Assembly (NCBI RefSeq): GCF_029626225.1
Contig: NZ_JARUBP010000001.1
Span: 2,728,001-2,792,000, forward strand
Origin: Asanoa sp. WMMD1127
GTDB lineage: Bacteria; Actinomycetota; Actinomycetes; Mycobacteriales; Micromonosporaceae
Length of the DNA stretch: 64,000 bases
Direction: 5' to 3'
Part shown: positions 7,179 to 38,629 of the stretch, piece by piece
Layout: every line of letters begins with the position of its first letter
Numbering within the stretch: position 1 is the stretch's first letter
Program-made: the position numbers and the translations under genes
The notes under the pieces: model-generated
What the model saw: the letters and a program-made list of their open reading frames with translations, nothing else
Database searches by the model: none
What the model was told of the DNA's origin: nothing

Positions 7179-7360
7179 AGCCCCGCCGCCGCCGGTCGGG
7201 GCGGCGCCGACGGCAGTTCTTCGCCGCCGTCACCCAGGCGAGGGCGCCACCCGGCCGCGCGCGGCTGCGGACGCGGCTCCCTCGGCGCGCAACCGCCGGA
7301 CTGCCCGCAAGCGGCGTTGCCCACCCCGCAGCTGCTGTGGGCGTGCCGCCCTTGACGCGG

Positions 7361-7440
7361 CGTCCCCGCGTCCCCGCGTCCCCGCGTCCCCGCGTCCCCG
7401 CGTCCCCGCGTCCCCGCGTCCCCGCGTCCCCGCGTCCCCG
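7361..7440. repeat. 8-bp tandem repeat, ten exact copies
   Basis: The unit CGTCCCCG is repeated ten times without interruption over 80 bp. A unit of 8 is not a multiple of three, so the array is unlikely to be coding. It is a candidate slipped-strand (variable-number) locus. Confidence 0.9.
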
Positions 7441-7470
7441 CGCTGGCGCGGTGCGGCGGTGGCGTGGTGG

Positions 7471-31646: not shown

Positions 31647-32572
31647 CGGTCGACGGTGTCGGTGGCGGCCATCACGCGCAGGGCGTTGGCGGCCAGGCCG
31701 ATCCGCAGCGGCGTGTAGCCCCGCGGCTCCCCGTCGACCTCGACCGGCACCGGGCGGTCGGTCTCGACCAGGATCTCGTCGGTGGCCAGGAACGGATCCT
31801 CGCCGTGGGAGCGGCGGTGGCCGGTCGCCGCGTTGCGGGCCGTCTCGCGCAGGAGCCGCGCGCGGTTGGCGTCGCCGACGGGGTACGCGACCAGCAGCCG
31901 GTCGTCGGCGTCGGCGTCGGCGGTGATCGGGCGGCCGGCGTGGAACCCGCCATTGGCGACGTAGAGCTGATGGGTCACGTAGTCGTGCGACCGGCCGTCG
32001 GTGCGCACGGTCACCCGCATCGCCCGGTGGCGGGTGAGCAGGGCCAGCGCGGTCGCGGGATAGGCGAGGCGGCCGATGACCTTCTTGAGCCGCGGCGGGG
32101 CGGTCGCGAAGATCGCGGCGGACAGGCCGATGCCGACGTGGTTGGCGAACGGCATGTCGCCGGCCAGGCCCAGGTCGACGTCGATCACCTTGCCGCCGGT
32201 CAGGATGGCGACGGCGGCGTCGAGGTCGAGCGGGATGCCGAGCGTACGGGCGAAGTTGTTGGTCGTGCCCAATGGCAGCAGCCCGAGCGCGACGTCGCGG
32301 TGCGCCAGATGCCGGGCGGCAGCGCCGATCGTGCCGTCACCGCCGCCGACGACGAGCAGGTCCGGCCCGAGCTCCGTCGCCGACTCCAGGCTGCTGCGCA
32401 ACTGTCTCGGGTCCTCGATCGGGAACCGGCCCAACAGCTCGAACCCGGCGGCCTCGACCCGGCGCAGCACCTCGGGATAGAGCCGGCGGCCCCGCCGGGA
32501 GTGGGCGTTGACCAGCAGCACGGCCCGGCGGCCCGTGCGGATCGCCGAGGTCAGCTCCGGCTTCGTGCGCAT
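31643..32572 (-). CDS. diacylglycerol/YegS-type lipid kinase
   Basis: A 309-aa protein of the DAGK catalytic family. VLLVNAHSRRG opens the domain, VVGGGDGTIG is the nucleotide-binding loop, and LPLGTTNNFARTLGIP is the conserved GT-NxxAR region. The C-terminal beta sandwich includes VEVDGEPRG. It phosphorylates a membrane lipid alcohol from the cytoplasmic face; the lipid is not predictable. ATG 32572 (MRTKPEL) is used; the frame continues far upstream into the ThrRS leader and is not coding there. Confidence 0.9.
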   Translation of the reverse strand: MRTKPELTSAIRTGRRAVLLVNAHSRRGRRLYPEVLRRVEAAGFELLGRFPIEDPRQLRSSLESATELGPDLLVVGGGDGTIGAAARHLAHRDVALGLLPLGTTNNFARTLGIPLDLDAAVAILTGGKVIDVDLGLAGDMPFANHVGIGLSAAIFATAPPRLKKVIGRLAYPATALALLTRHRAMRVTVRTDGRSHDYVTHQLYVANGGFHAGRPITADADADDRLLVAYPVGDANRARLLRETARNAATGHRRSHGEDPFLATDEILVETDRPVPVEVDGEPRGYTPLRIGLAANALRVMAATDTVDR

Positions 32573-32640
32573 GGGGGGTCCTCGTCGGTCGGGGAGATAT
32601 TCGGGTGCGTCCCGGGCGGCCGGCTCGCTAGCCTGGCGAC

Positions 32641-32694
32641 ATGGTTGGGCCAGCACGCACGACGACGCCGGGATGTCCCGGCGTGCCTCGCTGA
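32641..32694 (+). CDS. putative leader peptide with three Thr codons, upstream of ThrRS
   Basis: A 17-codon frame reading MVGPARTTTPGCPGVPR then TGA, with three consecutive ACG threonine codons at 32659-32667. It lies 88 bases before a threonyl-tRNA synthetase gene and is followed by two hairpins able to refold into an alternative structure. That is the arrangement of ribosome-mediated attenuation: a ribosome starved of Thr-tRNA would stall in the first hairpin's left arm. No strong ribosome-binding site is visible (CTGGCGAC precedes the ATG), which is the main weakness. Translation is not proven. Confidence 0.55.
   Translation: MVGPARTTTPGCPGVPR
32665..32684 (+). promoter_or_regulatory. attenuator hairpin 1:2 overlapping the Thr codons
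   Basis: ACGCCGGGA (32665-32673) and TCCCGGCGT (32676-32684) are perfectly complementary, and the left arm starts at the third ACG codon. The right arm (CCCGGCG, 32677-32683) is also complementary to CGCCGGG at 32728-32734, the right side of the next hairpin. It could therefore act as an antiterminator when a stalled ribosome covers the left arm. Confidence 0.55.
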
Positions 32695-32711
32695 CCCTAC
32701 CGTCATCGATC

Positions 32712-32738
32712 CAGCCCCGGGCGACTCCGCCGGGGCTG
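32712..32738 (+). terminator. putative attenuator terminator hairpin 3:4 before ThrRS
   Basis: CAGCCCCGG (32712-32720) pairs perfectly with CCGGGGCTG (32730-32738) around a 9-base loop. There is no U-run after it, as is usual for high-GC actinobacterial terminators, so it may instead work through Rho or by changing access to the AGGAG ribosome-binding site at 32771-32775. Its right arm competes with hairpin 1:2 as described for that element. Confidence 0.5.
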
Positions 32739-32781
32739 TGCTGTTGGTGGGGTCGTCGCGGCCGTCTCAACAGGAGCCACC

Positions 32782-33981
32782 ATGATCGACCATCGCAAGC
32801 TCGGGCGTGAGCTCGGCATCTTCCATTCTGATCCACGCTCGGGTGCGGGCCTGCCGCTGTGGTTGCCGGCGGGCGCCGCGGCCCGGCACGCGGTCGAGGA
32901 ATACCTGCGCGACCTCGAGCAGCGCAACGGCTACCAGCACGTCTACTCGCCACCGTTGGGGCGACGGGAGCTGTTCGAGCTGTCCGGCCATCTCGGCTAC
33001 TTCGCCGACGACATGTTCCCGCCGATGCGGCTGTCGTCCGACGACGAGCTGATGCTGCGGCCCGCGCTCTGTCCGCACCACTGTCTGGTCTACCTCGCGC
33101 GCGGGCGCTCGTACCGGGAGCTGCCGTTGCGGATAGCGGAGATCGGCGGCATGTACCGCAGTGAGCGGTCCGGCGTGCTCGGCGGGTTGTCGCGGGTCCG
33201 GGCGATCCATCTCAACGACGCCCACATCTTCTGTGCCCTCTCGTCCGTCGGCGAGGAGGTGGCGTCGGTGCTGTCCCTGGTCGACGCCGCGCATGCGGCC
33301 CTCGGCGTGCGGGTGAGCTCGCTGCGGCTCTCGCTGCGGGGGCCTGGCGCGAAATACATCGGGTCGCCCGAGTCGTGGGAGATGGCGGAGTCGCTGCTGC
33401 GGTCGGCACTGGGCGACCGGTCCTATGTGGAGGCGCCCGGTGACGCGGCGTTCTACGGGCCTAAGATCGACATCCAGGTGGCGGACGCGGCGGGGCGGGA
33501 GTGGACCCTGTCGACCGTACAGCTGGATTTCGACAAGCCGGAGCGCTTCGATTTGTCCTATGTGGATGCGTCTGGTTCGCGGCAACGGCCTGTTCTCGTG
33601 CACCGCAGCCTGGTGGGCAGCATGGAGCGGCTGTTCGGTTACCTGATCGAGGCGCACGAGGGTGCGTTCCCGGTCTGGTACGCGCCGGTGCAGGTGCGGG
33701 TGCTGCCGGTGTCGGAGGGTGTCGCGGGGGCGGCGTACTCGTTCTCGGCCGCGGCGGCGTCGCGCGGTCTGCGGGTCGACGTCGACGTCGAGGGCGGGTC
33801 GCTGGGGGCCCGCATCCGCGACGCGGCGGCGCTGCGGGTGCCCTACGTGGCGGTGATCGGCGAGCGCGAGGCCGCCGGCGGTCAGGTGGCGTTGCGGCTG
33901 CGCGGCGGTCGCGAGCTGCCGCCGATGCCGATCGCGGACGCGCTCCGGCTGATCGGCGAAGAAGGAAGGCTCCCTTCCTGA
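32782..33981 (+). CDS. thrS-like: short threonyl-tRNA synthetase lacking TGS and editing domains
   Basis: A 399-aa class II synthetase comprising only the catalytic core (about 1-290) and the anticodon-binding domain (about 300-399). The usual ~640-680-aa ThrRS also has N-terminal TGS and editing domains; both are missing. The zinc ligands are retained as Cys97 (ALCPHH), His148 (NDAHIF) and His274 (VLVHRS). Motif 2 (MYRSERSG) and motif 3 (GSMERLFGYLIE) are present. AGGAG six bases before ATG 32782 fixes the start. Such second copies without proofreading occur in other bacteria and may serve in threonine or zinc stress, or resist ThrRS inhibitors. The leader suggests induction by lack of charged tRNA-Thr. 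Confidence 0.9.
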   Translation: MIDHRKLGRELGIFHSDPRSGAGLPLWLPAGAAARHAVEEYLRDLEQRNGYQHVYSPPLGRRELFELSGHLGYFADDMFPPMRLSSDDELMLRPALCPHHCLVYLARGRSYRELPLRIAEIGGMYRSERSGVLGGLSRVRAIHLNDAHIFCALSSVGEEVASVLSLVDAAHAALGVRVSSLRLSLRGPGAKYIGSPESWEMAESLLRSALGDRSYVEAPGDAAFYGPKIDIQVADAAGREWTLSTVQLDFDKPERFDLSYVDASGSRQRPVLVHRSLVGSMERLFGYLIEAHEGAFPVWYAPVQVRVLPVSEGVAGAAYSFSAAAASRGLRVDVDVEGGSLGARIRDAAALRVPYVAVIGEREAAGGQVALRLRGGRELPPMPIADALRLIGEEGRLPS

Positions 33982-36639: not shown

Positions 36640-38160
36640 CTATGACCGCGCGGCGGTGGCATCCCGCAGGCGATCGCGGCTCTGGTTTACCATACGATTC
36701 GGTTTCGACAGGCACCGGAGTGGCCGCCGCCGTCTTCGCCGTTTACTGCTCAGCAAGCCCGGCTGCGTCCGGCTCACGAAACGCGACCGAGTCGGCGCGA
36801 GTTCCCTAGGGGCGGAGCTGATCGCCTCGGGCTGACCAGGCCCGGCTGTGGCGGGCTTGGCAGAGGTGATCGGAGTCGAGGCCGCCAGCCCAGTGGACGC
36901 GGCGCTGATCGCCTCGGGCTCACCAGGCCCGGCTGCGGCGCGCTTGGCAGAGGTGATCGGAGTCGAGGCCAGCCCAGCGGGCGCGGCGCTGATCGCCTGG
37001 GGCTCACCAGGCCCGGCTGCGGCGGGCTTGGCAGAGGTAATGGGAGTCGAGGTCAGCCCAGCGGACGCGGCGCTGATCGCCTCGGGCTGACCAGGCCCGG
37101 CTGCGGCGGGCTTGGCAGAGGTGATCGGAGTCGAGGCCAGCCCAGTGGACGCGGCGCTGATCGCCTCGGGCTGACCAGGCCCGGCTGCGGCGGGCTTGGC
37201 AGAGGTGATCGGAGTCGAGGCCAGCCCAGCGGACGCGGCGCTGATCGCCTCGGGCTGACCAGGCCCGGCTGCGGCGGGCTTGGCAGAGGTGATCGGAGTC
37301 GAGGCCAGCCCAGCGGACGCGGCGCTGATCGCCTCGGGCTGACCAGGCCCGGCTGCGGCGGGCTTGGCAGAGGTGATCGGAGTCGAGGCCAGCCCAGCGG
37401 ACGCGGCGCTGATCGCCTCGGGCTGACCAGGCCCGGCTGCGGCGGGCTTGGCAGAGGTGATCGGAGTCGAGGCCAGCCCAGCGGACGCGGCGCTGATCGC
37501 CTCGGGCTGACCAGGCCCGGCTGCGGCGGGCTTGGCAGAGGTGATCGGAGTCGAGGCCAGCCCAGCGGACGCGGCGCTGATCGCCTCGGGCTGACCAGGC
37601 CCGGCTGCGGCGGGCTTGGCAGAGGTGATCGGAGTCGAGGCCAGCCCAGCGGACGCGGCGCTGATCGCCTCGGGCTGACCAGGCCCGGCTGCGGCGGGCT
37701 TGGCAGAGGTGATCGGAGTCGAGGCCAGCCCAGCGGACGCGGCGCTGATCGCCTCGGGCTCACCAGGCCCGGCCGCGCCCATCTCGGATAGGGATCGGCC
37801 GGCCGATGGTGCGCCCGTGGCACCCCCAGCCGCCAGGCCCGGAACGCCGCCGGGTCGGGGCGCAACCCGCTCGGCCGGCACCGCTGGGACGGGCTCGATG
37901 TCGACCGGCCCGGCGCGGACGGACTCGACCGGCCGGGCCGCTGTCAGTCGCTGATCCCACGCCGCCAGCACCTCCGCGTCACCGGGAACATGGCCATACG
38001 CGCGGCGCAACTTCCGGGCATGCCGCTGTGCCAGCCCCCATTCCCGATGTCGCGCATGCTCATGACGAAAATCATCACCCGCGACCGAATAATCGCGGCG
38101 TCGATTTTTATCTCGCGCGGCGGCCAACCGAGCCGCCGGAAAGAGTTGGAGCTGCCGCAT
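36640..38160 (-). CDS. repeat protein with 28-residue tandem repeats
   Basis: A 506-aa protein. Residues 1 to about 80 are a basic, helical domain opening MRQLQLFPAARLAAARDKNRRR and containing HARHREWGLAQRHARKLRR. A short linker follows, then eleven full copies plus a partial copy of a 28-residue Ala/Pro/Ser/Thr-rich unit containing PEAISAASAGLASTPITSAK, and a strongly basic tail with six consecutive arginines. It has no signal peptide or membrane segment. The repeats stay in the frame of the N-terminal domain throughout, which supports a real gene. The frame is open in other phases too, so confidence is moderate. The basic ends suggest nucleic-acid binding (inference). The surrounding DNA is less GC-rich. 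Confidence 0.55.
   Translation of the reverse strand: MRQLQLFPAARLAAARDKNRRRDYSVAGDDFRHEHARHREWGLAQRHARKLRRAYGHVPGDAEVLAAWDQRLTAARPVESVRAGPVDIEPVPAVPAERVAPRPGGVPGLAAGGATGAPSAGRSLSEMGAAGPGEPEAISAASAGLASTPITSAKPAAAGPGQPEAISAASAGLASTPITSAKPAAAGPGQPEAISAASAGLASTPITSAKPAAAGPGQPEAISAASAGLASTPITSAKPAAAGPGQPEAISAASAGLASTPITSAKPAAAGPGQPEAISAASAGLASTPITSAKPAAAGPGQPEAISAASAGLASTPITSAKPAAAGPGQPEAISAASTGLASTPITSAKPAAAGPGQPEAISAASAGLTSTPITSAKPAAAGPGEPQAISAAPAGLASTPITSAKRAAAGPGEPEAISAASTGLAASTPITSAKPATAGPGQPEAISSAPRELAPTRSRFVSRTQPGLLSSKRRRRRRPLRCLSKPNRMVNQSRDRLRDATAARS
36818..37772. repeat. 84-bp tandem repeat, eleven full copies plus part
   Basis: Units start at 36818, 36905, 36989, 37073, 37157, 37241, 37325, 37409, 37493, 37577 and 37661; a partial unit starts at 37745. 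All are 84 bp except the first, which is 87. The seven units from 37157 to 37744 look identical by eye, while the outer ones carry a few changes. The array lies inside the repeat-protein gene, and 84 is a multiple of three, so copy-number change would keep the frame. Near identity points to recent amplification or continuing gene conversion. Confidence 0.95.
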
Positions 38161-38450
38161 ATAGAAATTGTCTCGAAAGCCAGCTCACACCGCCACCATT
38201 CGATCTTCCAGAATAGTTCCGTCAGTGAAAATTTGGCTGTGCCAAATGGGAAACCGCACGCCCTACCAGGGCGATCCCACTCCCGCTCTCGTTCCGCTGG
38301 CCAAGCCGTCGCTGACCACGTAGATAGAAGCGGGGCATGCGTCTTACCCAGCCTTCAGATGAACGCTCCGGGTTGCCGGCCGACTCCGCTCTGCCTCCAT
38401 CGACACATCACCCTCGTAAGCCGCCGGCGATGCGACACCGGCTCATTTGC

Positions 38451-38629
38451 GGTGCGTGGCCCTCCGCGGTGCGTGGCCCTCCGCGGTGCGTGGCCCTCCG
38501 CGGTGCGTGGCCCTCCGCGGTGCGTGGCCCTCCGCGGTGCGTGGCCCTCCGCGGTGCGTGGCCCTCCGCGGTGCGTGGCCCTCCGCGGTGCGTGGCCCTC
38601 CGCGGTGCGTGGCCCTCCGCGATGCGTGC
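38451..38629. repeat. 17-bp tandem repeat, ten exact copies plus a degenerate one
   Basis: The unit GGTGCGTGGCCCTCCGC is repeated head to tail from 38451 to 38620 and a decayed eleventh copy (GATGCGTGC) follows. Seventeen is not a multiple of three, so this is probably not coding. It is a minisatellite-type locus. Confidence 0.92.

Follow-up and report, generated by a model that had tools for sequence, protein, structure and literature searches.

Genomic context of the short threonyl-tRNA synthetase gene

In Asanoa sp. WMMD1127, a gene encoding a short threonyl-tRNA synthetase (ThrRS) is preceded by a small frame with a run of threonine codons and by two hairpins, which raises the question of whether this gene is controlled by ribosome-mediated attenuation. 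The window, i.e., the whole stretch of 64,000 nucleotides that was analyzed, corresponds to G000:C1:2728001-2792000 on the plus strand. The leader frame, hairpin 1, and hairpin 2 are all located between a lipid-kinase gene and the short ThrRS gene. The features of this region are as follows.

Start taken as 32572, minus strand: divergent lipid-kinase gene, 5' neighbour of the leader region
32629..32634, plus strand: -10 box TAGCCT, 12 nt 5' of the leader ATG, predicted leaderless promoter
32641..32694, plus strand: leader ORF MVGPARTTTPGCPGVPR, 17 codons, ATG at 32641 and stop codon TGA at 32692-32694
32659..32667, plus strand: three putative regulatory Thr codons, ACG ACG ACG; Thr run kept in relatives
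32665..32684, plus strand: hairpin 1, 8 bp, ACGCCGGG/CCCGGCGT, loop ATGT; left arm A at 32665-32672, right arm A' at 32677-32684
32712..32738, plus strand: hairpin 2, CAGCCCCGG/CCGGGGCTG, terminator-like, without a U-run
32772..32776, plus strand: Shine-Dalgarno sequence AGGAG of thrS
32782..33981, plus strand: short ThrRS, 399 aa, editing domain not found

The 17-codon frame with its three consecutive ACG codons and both hairpins are present where the original prediction had placed them. The prediction also named the lack of a clear ribosome-binding site for the leader as a weak point. This site is indeed absent, but the objection drawn from it does not stand, as the promoter spacing fits leaderless translation: the site is missing because the leader is probably translated leaderless, with TAnnnT 12–14 nt before the start codon. 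Translation of the leader itself we infer from the conservation of its frame and promoter. The promoter spacing also puts the predicted transcription start at the leader ATG, and not downstream of 32694, where it would have spoken against attenuation. Frames of 10–30 codons with an ATG or GTG start, TTT, and TAnnnT 12–14 nt before have two occurrences in the 64 kb, namely the leader ORF and a frame at position 260 of the minus strand, and 60 dinucleotide shuffles contain none.

Several tandem repeats were also found in the window. An 84-bp repeat at 36812-37777 (11.5 copies, 97% matches) lies within a minus-strand frame of 506 aa, in which the peptide is repeated correspondingly. A 17-bp repeat at 38449-38628 (10.6 copies, 99% matches) is open in several frames, and the 8-bp repeat GCGTCCCC is present in 10.4 perfect copies at 7360-7442.

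The short ThrRS

The short ThrRS scores 433.9 bits against TIGR00418 (thrS), compared with a cut-off of 383.65. Pfam detects the class II core and anticodon-binding domains only, in agreement with the earlier claim that this synthetase lacks its editing domain. The full-length ThrRS of the same genome (L002:667-2715, 683 aa) also has tRNA_SAD. Short and full-length ThrRS are 42% identical over the part that they have in common. A leader with two consecutive Thr was not found in the ~660 nt examined upstream of the Asanoa housekeeping ThrRS gene.

The closest named relatives are from Asanoa, with 84–86% protein identity. In the family, a protein match at E ≤ 1e-120 is present in 261 of 354 genomes, a count in which a few matches near 1e-121 may be the main enzyme. 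Among solved structures, the best match of the short ThrRS is that of Staphylococcus aureus ThrRS (1nyq; 357 bits), with the next sequence at 273 bits. This clear best match suggests that the short ThrRS did not arise simply by truncation of the main enzyme, and it may point to an old transfer. According to passages of PMC11252418, a Gly decides the obafluorin and borrelidin sensitivity of Escherichia coli ThrRS. The short ThrRS keeps that Gly after the active-site Tyr, in AFYGPKI. With the one marker examined unchanged, a drug-insensitive ThrRS is not indicated.

Conservation of the leader in close relatives

The leader sample comprised 110 loci (L001 and L005-L113), namely the best 30 loci of the family protein search and the best 80 of 135 from a second search for relatives, and gave 97 distinct 180-nt upstreams of the closest short-ThrRS orthologues. 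TT[P/S] occurs within a frame in all 97. The leaders are 17, 18, 19, or 20 codons long in 59, 32, 3, and 3 upstreams, respectively, and end with TGA in 92, TAG in 4, and TAA in 1. TAnnnT is found 12–14 nt before the leader start codon in 96 of the 97 (81, 13, and 2 by spacing), L111 being the leader without the box. Homologous leaders without Thr codons, which the original prediction had named as counter-evidence, were not encountered: at least two consecutive Thr are present in 97/97, and three in 92. The five leaders with a run of two are all from Salinispora. At the first Thr position, 60 upstreams carry ACC, 32 ACG, and 5 AAC; at the second, 94 have ACG and 3 ACC; at the third, ACG is invariant. 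The first two Thr codons thus differ by synonymous ACC/ACG changes among relatives.

This pattern bears on two other ways of controlling a synthetase gene. Protein-binding autoregulation, as of the mRNA of E. coli thrS, appears very unlikely here. Although E. coli ThrRS is mentioned as a regulator of its own expression in passages of PMC2965389, autoregulation would leave the leader frame, the Thr run, and the leaderless promoter spacing unexplained. A T-box riboswitch or other direct tRNA sensing would suit a regulated gene that encodes an aminoacyl-tRNA synthetase, and unusual, possibly translational T-boxes before ileS are described for actinobacteria in part of PMC1262725. However, the feature conserved here is a frame with synonymous Thr-codon changes. 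The window has no Rfam match at the gathering threshold, and at E ≤ 10 over 32560-32800 a plant miRNA family alone was retrieved (E 1.7), far below its gathering score. With no convincing Rfam match and no T-box covariance-model match, a T-box or other known RNA family was rejected, and direct tRNA sensing is considered extremely unlikely.

Covariation and folding of the hairpins

Two further elements extend hairpin 1 in the window.

32647..32654, plus strand: outer stem of hairpin 1, 5' side, 7/8 pairs with 32690-32697 by eye
32690..32697, plus strand: outer stem, 3' side, overlapping the leader stop codon

Alignment A1 contains 62 of the 97 leaders, picked by hand for diversity. Over the outer stem, the inner stem, and hairpin 2, 91.7% of cells are paired and 10 pairs show two-sided changes; covariation in both hairpins had been proposed as a check on the original prediction. 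Double-change cells number 53 in A1, compared with 18.9 ± 4.2 in shuffles (reached in 0/500), and slid controls are at most 54% paired; these shuffles ignore kinship, and related sequences can exceed all of them without structure. The outer stem connects the beginning of the leader with the stop codon, with double changes at 5 of 7 pairs and 79.5% of cells paired in A1. In 28 of the 62 leaders this stem lacks its middle pair, and the stem is not part of the minimum-energy fold of the window leader. The inner stem (hairpin 1) is nearly fixed, with 99.7% of cells paired in the 62 leaders. In L052, a C-G pair of the inner stem has become U-A with pairing kept, and the codon after the Thr run has changed from Pro to Ser; therefore, the stem and not Pro is conserved. 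Outside Micromonosporaceae, hairpin 2 shows weak covariation, with 2 pairs carrying double changes and 190/500 shuffles reaching this level, in alignment A2 (43 of 47 non-family sequences; L199, L240, L154, and L252 were dropped, with hairpins poorly placed or not found).

The 145-nt leader of the window folds at -76.8 kcal/mol (z -2.74), and 0 of 200 dinucleotide shuffles are as stable. A terminator scan of 32400-32900 gave no match and no U-run, such promoter and terminator scans being uninformative for a high-GC actinobacterium. The absence of a U-run after hairpin 2, conceded in the original prediction, was confirmed. In 77 of the 97 upstreams, the 8 nt after the hairpin contain 0–2 T, with hairpin ends set roughly by the script. 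Compared with leader-peptide attenuators, the locus has a Thr-rich short frame and a downstream gene for the same amino acid, and it lacks a classical U-run terminator. The classical terminator form is not claimed.

Distribution in actinobacteria

A covariance model, R1, was built from alignment A1. In the Asanoa genome, R1 scores the window leader with E 2.9e-13, and the next match has E 0.15. A search of 394 class genomes gave 86 matches in 79 genomes at E ≤ 0.001. A protein search of the same 394 genomes at E ≤ 1e-115 gave 61 short ThrRS genes, 56 of which have an R1 match at most 420 nt upstream. Among the other five, leaders are readable in L197-L199, and G643 and G504 are at contig ends. 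A leader, as a model match or readable, is therefore present in 59/59 class short ThrRS genes not cut by a contig end.

Thirty of the 86 R1 matches are not upstream of a listed short ThrRS gene, and 25 of them were inspected. One precedes a short ThrRS below the cut-off (L196), and three precede full-length ThrRS genes (L189-L191); at the other 21, a Thr leader before ThrRS is absent, and many are gene-end hairpins. L128, one more R1 match, has the leader and runs past the end of its contig. Four opposite-strand echoes beside other R1 matches (G567, G440, G697, and G709) are outside the inspected 25. A pattern search of 346 phylum genomes gave matches in 69 genomes. Of 13 loci inspected, L248 and L252, both outside the class, have a leader and a short ThrRS, a combination absent at the other 11; five further matches are already known leaders (G000, G371, G410, G442, and G453). 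The short ThrRS of L252 (G987) has 51% identity, the lowest fetched, and its leader has a GTG start and a TAG stop.

A like leader was also found before the full-length ThrRS gene in 5/5 genomes of genus g150 and in G728. The leaders on full-length genes are L260-L264 and L189-L191, with L260 and L262 being the same loci as L189 and L190. In three of these six genomes (G592, G705, and G728), a short ThrRS was not detected by protein search.

Collectively, the comparison across genomes indicates that this putative attenuator is real and widespread in actinobacteria. Incidental hairpins in GC-rich sequence might be suspected from one genome viewed alone, which shows high GC and no U-run. Conservation across relatives is the decisive sequence evidence against chance, with the leader in 97/97 family upstreams and a model match or readable leader in 59/59 uncut class genes. 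The comparative data refute the chance reading, and the probability left to it is negligible.

Predicted antiterminator and proposed switch

We consider it very likely that a ribosome-mediated threonine attenuator controls this auxiliary ThrRS without an editing domain, and the original reading of the locus largely holds by comparative sequence evidence. That reading also proposed mutually exclusive folds, in which the right arms of the two hairpins pair. CCCGGCG (32677-32683) is perfectly complementary to CGCCGGG (32728-32734) in the window, and competing pairings are predicted. However, the partner that the folds of relatives predict for the right arm of hairpin 1 is a different one, the left arm of hairpin 2, at the following positions.

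32677..32681, plus strand: A' part of the predicted antiterminator, CCCGG, pairs with 32717-32721
32717..32721, plus strand: B part of the predicted antiterminator, CCGGG, in the left arm of hairpin 2

In the mechanism that we infer, which covers translation, stalling, the switch, its output, and the induction of thrS by starvation, transcription would start at the leader ATG and the leader would be translated leaderless. With ample Thr-tRNA, the ribosome would reach the stop codon and cover A', hairpin 2 would form, and expression would be low. With scarce Thr-tRNA, the ribosome would stall on the three Thr codons and open hairpin 1. The freed A' would then pair with the emerging left arm of hairpin 2, so that hairpin 2 would be prevented and ThrRS made. 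As the output step, hairpin 2 may terminate transcription, a downstream segment D may control the Shine-Dalgarno sequence, or both may occur.

Among 96 leaders, a set without L052, which did not fit the script's pattern, the stop codon follows CC(C)GG of A' at a distance of 15 nt in 85. Given the usual ribosome footprint, this distance predicts that A' is covered while a ribosome stands at the stop codon, and that a ribosome at Thr1 or Thr2 would open A and thereby release A'. In folds of the ribosome-freed RNA, A':B has at least 4 pairs in 95/96 (Thr1), 95/96 (Thr2), and 94/96 (Thr3) leaders; these folds end at the left arm of hairpin 2, as in co-transcriptional folding, and pairing between the two right arms could not appear in them. 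A':B is nearly invariant and shows no covariation, and the inner-stem change in L052 has no matching change in B. Composition could account for part of the A':B match, given how common CCCCGGGG is as a hairpin motif in these genomes.

At equilibrium with A' free, hairpin 2 beats A':B by a mean of 12.3 kcal/mol in 93 Micromonosporaceae and 9.7 in 44 others, a comparison covering 137 of 143 leaders (L007, L024, L052, L088, L129, and L154 were dropped). A':B is favoured in 3/137, and in 14/137 when the RNA is cut just after hairpin 2. A clean thermodynamic switch was rejected, with hairpin 2 favoured in 134/137. Since hairpin 2 wins at equilibrium, a working switch would have to act kinetically, unless the output is at another step.

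Predicted pairing of the hairpin 2 apex with a segment upstream of the Shine-Dalgarno sequence

Two segments downstream of the leader frame suggest a second output.

32720..32731, plus strand: segment L, at the apex of hairpin 2, able to form 12 contiguous pairs with D
32746..32757, plus strand: segment D, complement of L, with a second match (by eye) between its first 5 nt and 32777-32781 next to the Shine-Dalgarno sequence

The L:D set comprised 144 distinct leader-to-gene stretches from 176 loci. L111 (no -10 box), L200 (contig end), the housekeeping gene L002, and L173 and L235 were skipped; the last two are one genome, whose leader was readable in a separate inspection. In many of the 144 stretches, the Shine-Dalgarno sequence is preceded by a segment D with complementarity to the hairpin 2 apex. 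A variant with the same sensor and a translational output can be drawn from this arrangement: hairpin 2 would hide L, D would pair beside the Shine-Dalgarno sequence, and initiation would be blocked; on stalling, A':B would free L, L would pair with D, and the Shine-Dalgarno sequence would open. This variant seems possible rather than probable.

The L:D duplex energy beats 100/100 within-group permutations in both Micromonosporaceae (96; -17.0 vs. -16.5 kcal/mol permuted) and others (46; -21.4 vs. -19.4 kcal/mol), but the permutation test, which used 142 of the 144 stretches (L252 and L007 were dropped), is blind to each genome's own composition. Among the 43 non-family sequences of A2, 95.9% of L:D cells are paired vs. 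92.3% shuffled (0/500 reach), double-change cells number 16 vs. 4.3 ± 1.7 (0/500), and slid controls are at most 60% paired; the pair-type count, however, is no better than shuffled (357/500 reach). In A2, L:D is more variable than hairpin 2. Within Micromonosporaceae, alignment A3 (32 of a non-redundant 44, with twelve diverged rows omitted by hand) is 87.7% paired for L:D, but it has 1 double-change cell and 52/500 shuffles reach the percentage. The leaders of genus g150 have an L:D-like match by eye, with different letters. In the unconstrained fold of the window leader, by contrast, D is paired with 32692-32702 and not with L.

D is also matched to the Shine-Dalgarno region better than permuted in 100/100 in both groups (95 and 46), with windows that overlap by 2 nt, whereas D:Shine-Dalgarno pair counts are weak in one alignment and negative in another (0 double changes; 468/500 shuffles reach). 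Predicted Shine-Dalgarno accessibility barely shifts between states, from 0.093 to 0.156 (96) and from 0.344 to 0.361 (46), and Shine-Dalgarno opening by free energy is unconvincing with so small a computed change. A missing U-run would favour a translational output, but gene-end hairpins elsewhere are also without strong U-runs, so its absence says little. These observations hint at translational control as a serious variant of the attenuator reading.

Comparison among genomes establishes the leader, the promoter spacing, the Thr run, the hairpins, the association with ThrRS, and L:D in other families. Beyond this, we tentatively propose an RNA family that is unmatched in Rfam 15 and not confined to a single class of Actinomycetota, whose leaderless Thr leader would drive a pairing cascade of A:A', A':B, B:B', L:D, and D:Shine-Dalgarno. 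Both hairpin 2 and translation initiation would respond to stalling, giving two readouts, and the target would be a non-editing ThrRS in most carriers and the full-length ThrRS where no short copy was detected.

Comparison with known systems

A leader named thrL is listed before thrS (SLIV_19410) for Streptomyces lividans TK24 in a 2021 study (PMC8079986, in part). Its peptide is MKRVRPFLETTPGFVPAR, and it is described there as leaderless, with one hairpin and no uridine-rich stretch; RNA-seq shows that its transcript begins at the leader start, and trpL2 of S. lividans likewise lacks a uridine-rich stretch. The treatment of thrL in the parts of PMC8079986 available to us consists of one table line and a short RNA-seq passage, without comparison, antiterminator, or L:D. 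In both systems, ThrRS directly follows a leaderless TT(T)P leader, the leader here being assigned as leaderless by promoter spacing, and the S. lividans peptide is similar to leaders of the form M(K/Q)R..TTTP..VPAR that other families carry in the present data. A thrL-type leader before thrS is already known from S. lividans, and the kind is not new. Genus g70, which we presume to be Streptomyces, carries the leader before short ThrRS. The S. lividans leader peptide was not found in 101 g70 genomes, with weak matches in 33 (best E 0.85); of six inspected, one (L213) is upstream of a short ThrRS. Arithmetic on locus tags hints that SLIV_19410 may correspond to SCO3778, which is a guess.

SCO3778, a threonyl-tRNA synthetase, is among the sigma-E sites under ethanol stress in part of PMC10771440. 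Passages of PMC7157823 report that paralogous AlaRS and TrpRS of Streptomyces coelicolor are stress-induced, and SCO3778 was not found in its main text as available to us. According to parts of PMC1262725, a 2005 survey, actinobacterial cys operons have leaders without obvious terminators, and no conserved structure was found upstream of threonine operons. In the open-access literature, which excludes subscription journals, no Thr leader before thrS was found besides that of PMC8079986. Nor was a comparative case, an antiterminator, L:D, a tie to a non-editing short ThrRS, or a leader on a full-length gene found in print there.

If the attenuator reading is true, a drop in Thr-tRNA, whether starvation causes it or a drug that inhibits the main ThrRS, would turn on a non-editing enzyme in many actinobacteria. 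Ser-for-Thr errors under stress may then rise, a conjectural cost in fidelity. A sequence and structure model now exists for an element unmatched in Rfam 15, and the L:D pairing offers a concrete handle on how attenuators without a U-run may act in high-GC bacteria.

Other systems also place a second synthetase under regulation. In 2010, Vecchione and Sello reportedly described an auxiliary antibiotic-resistant TrpRS gene of S. coelicolor that is controlled by ribosome-mediated transcriptional attenuation. The two systems share a second synthetase under ribosome-mediated attenuation, but the TrpRS system concerns Trp and is drug-resistant, whereas the one described here concerns Thr and no such resistance is indicated. 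Bacillus subtilis is said to have two ThrRS genes, thrS and thrZ, with a shared antitermination element, as attributed to Putzer in 1992. That element is a T-box, and thrZ is full length. B. subtilis would have in common with the present system a second ThrRS whose expression depends on tRNA charging; the present system differs in having a leader peptide in place of the T-box and a short ThrRS in place of the full-length thrZ. In Anabaena, ThrRS T2 is a stress-induced second ThrRS with impaired editing, as described in parts of PMC4787780 and PMC9437257. T2 is induced by low zinc and retains an impaired editing domain, whereas the short ThrRS of Asanoa is without an editing domain.
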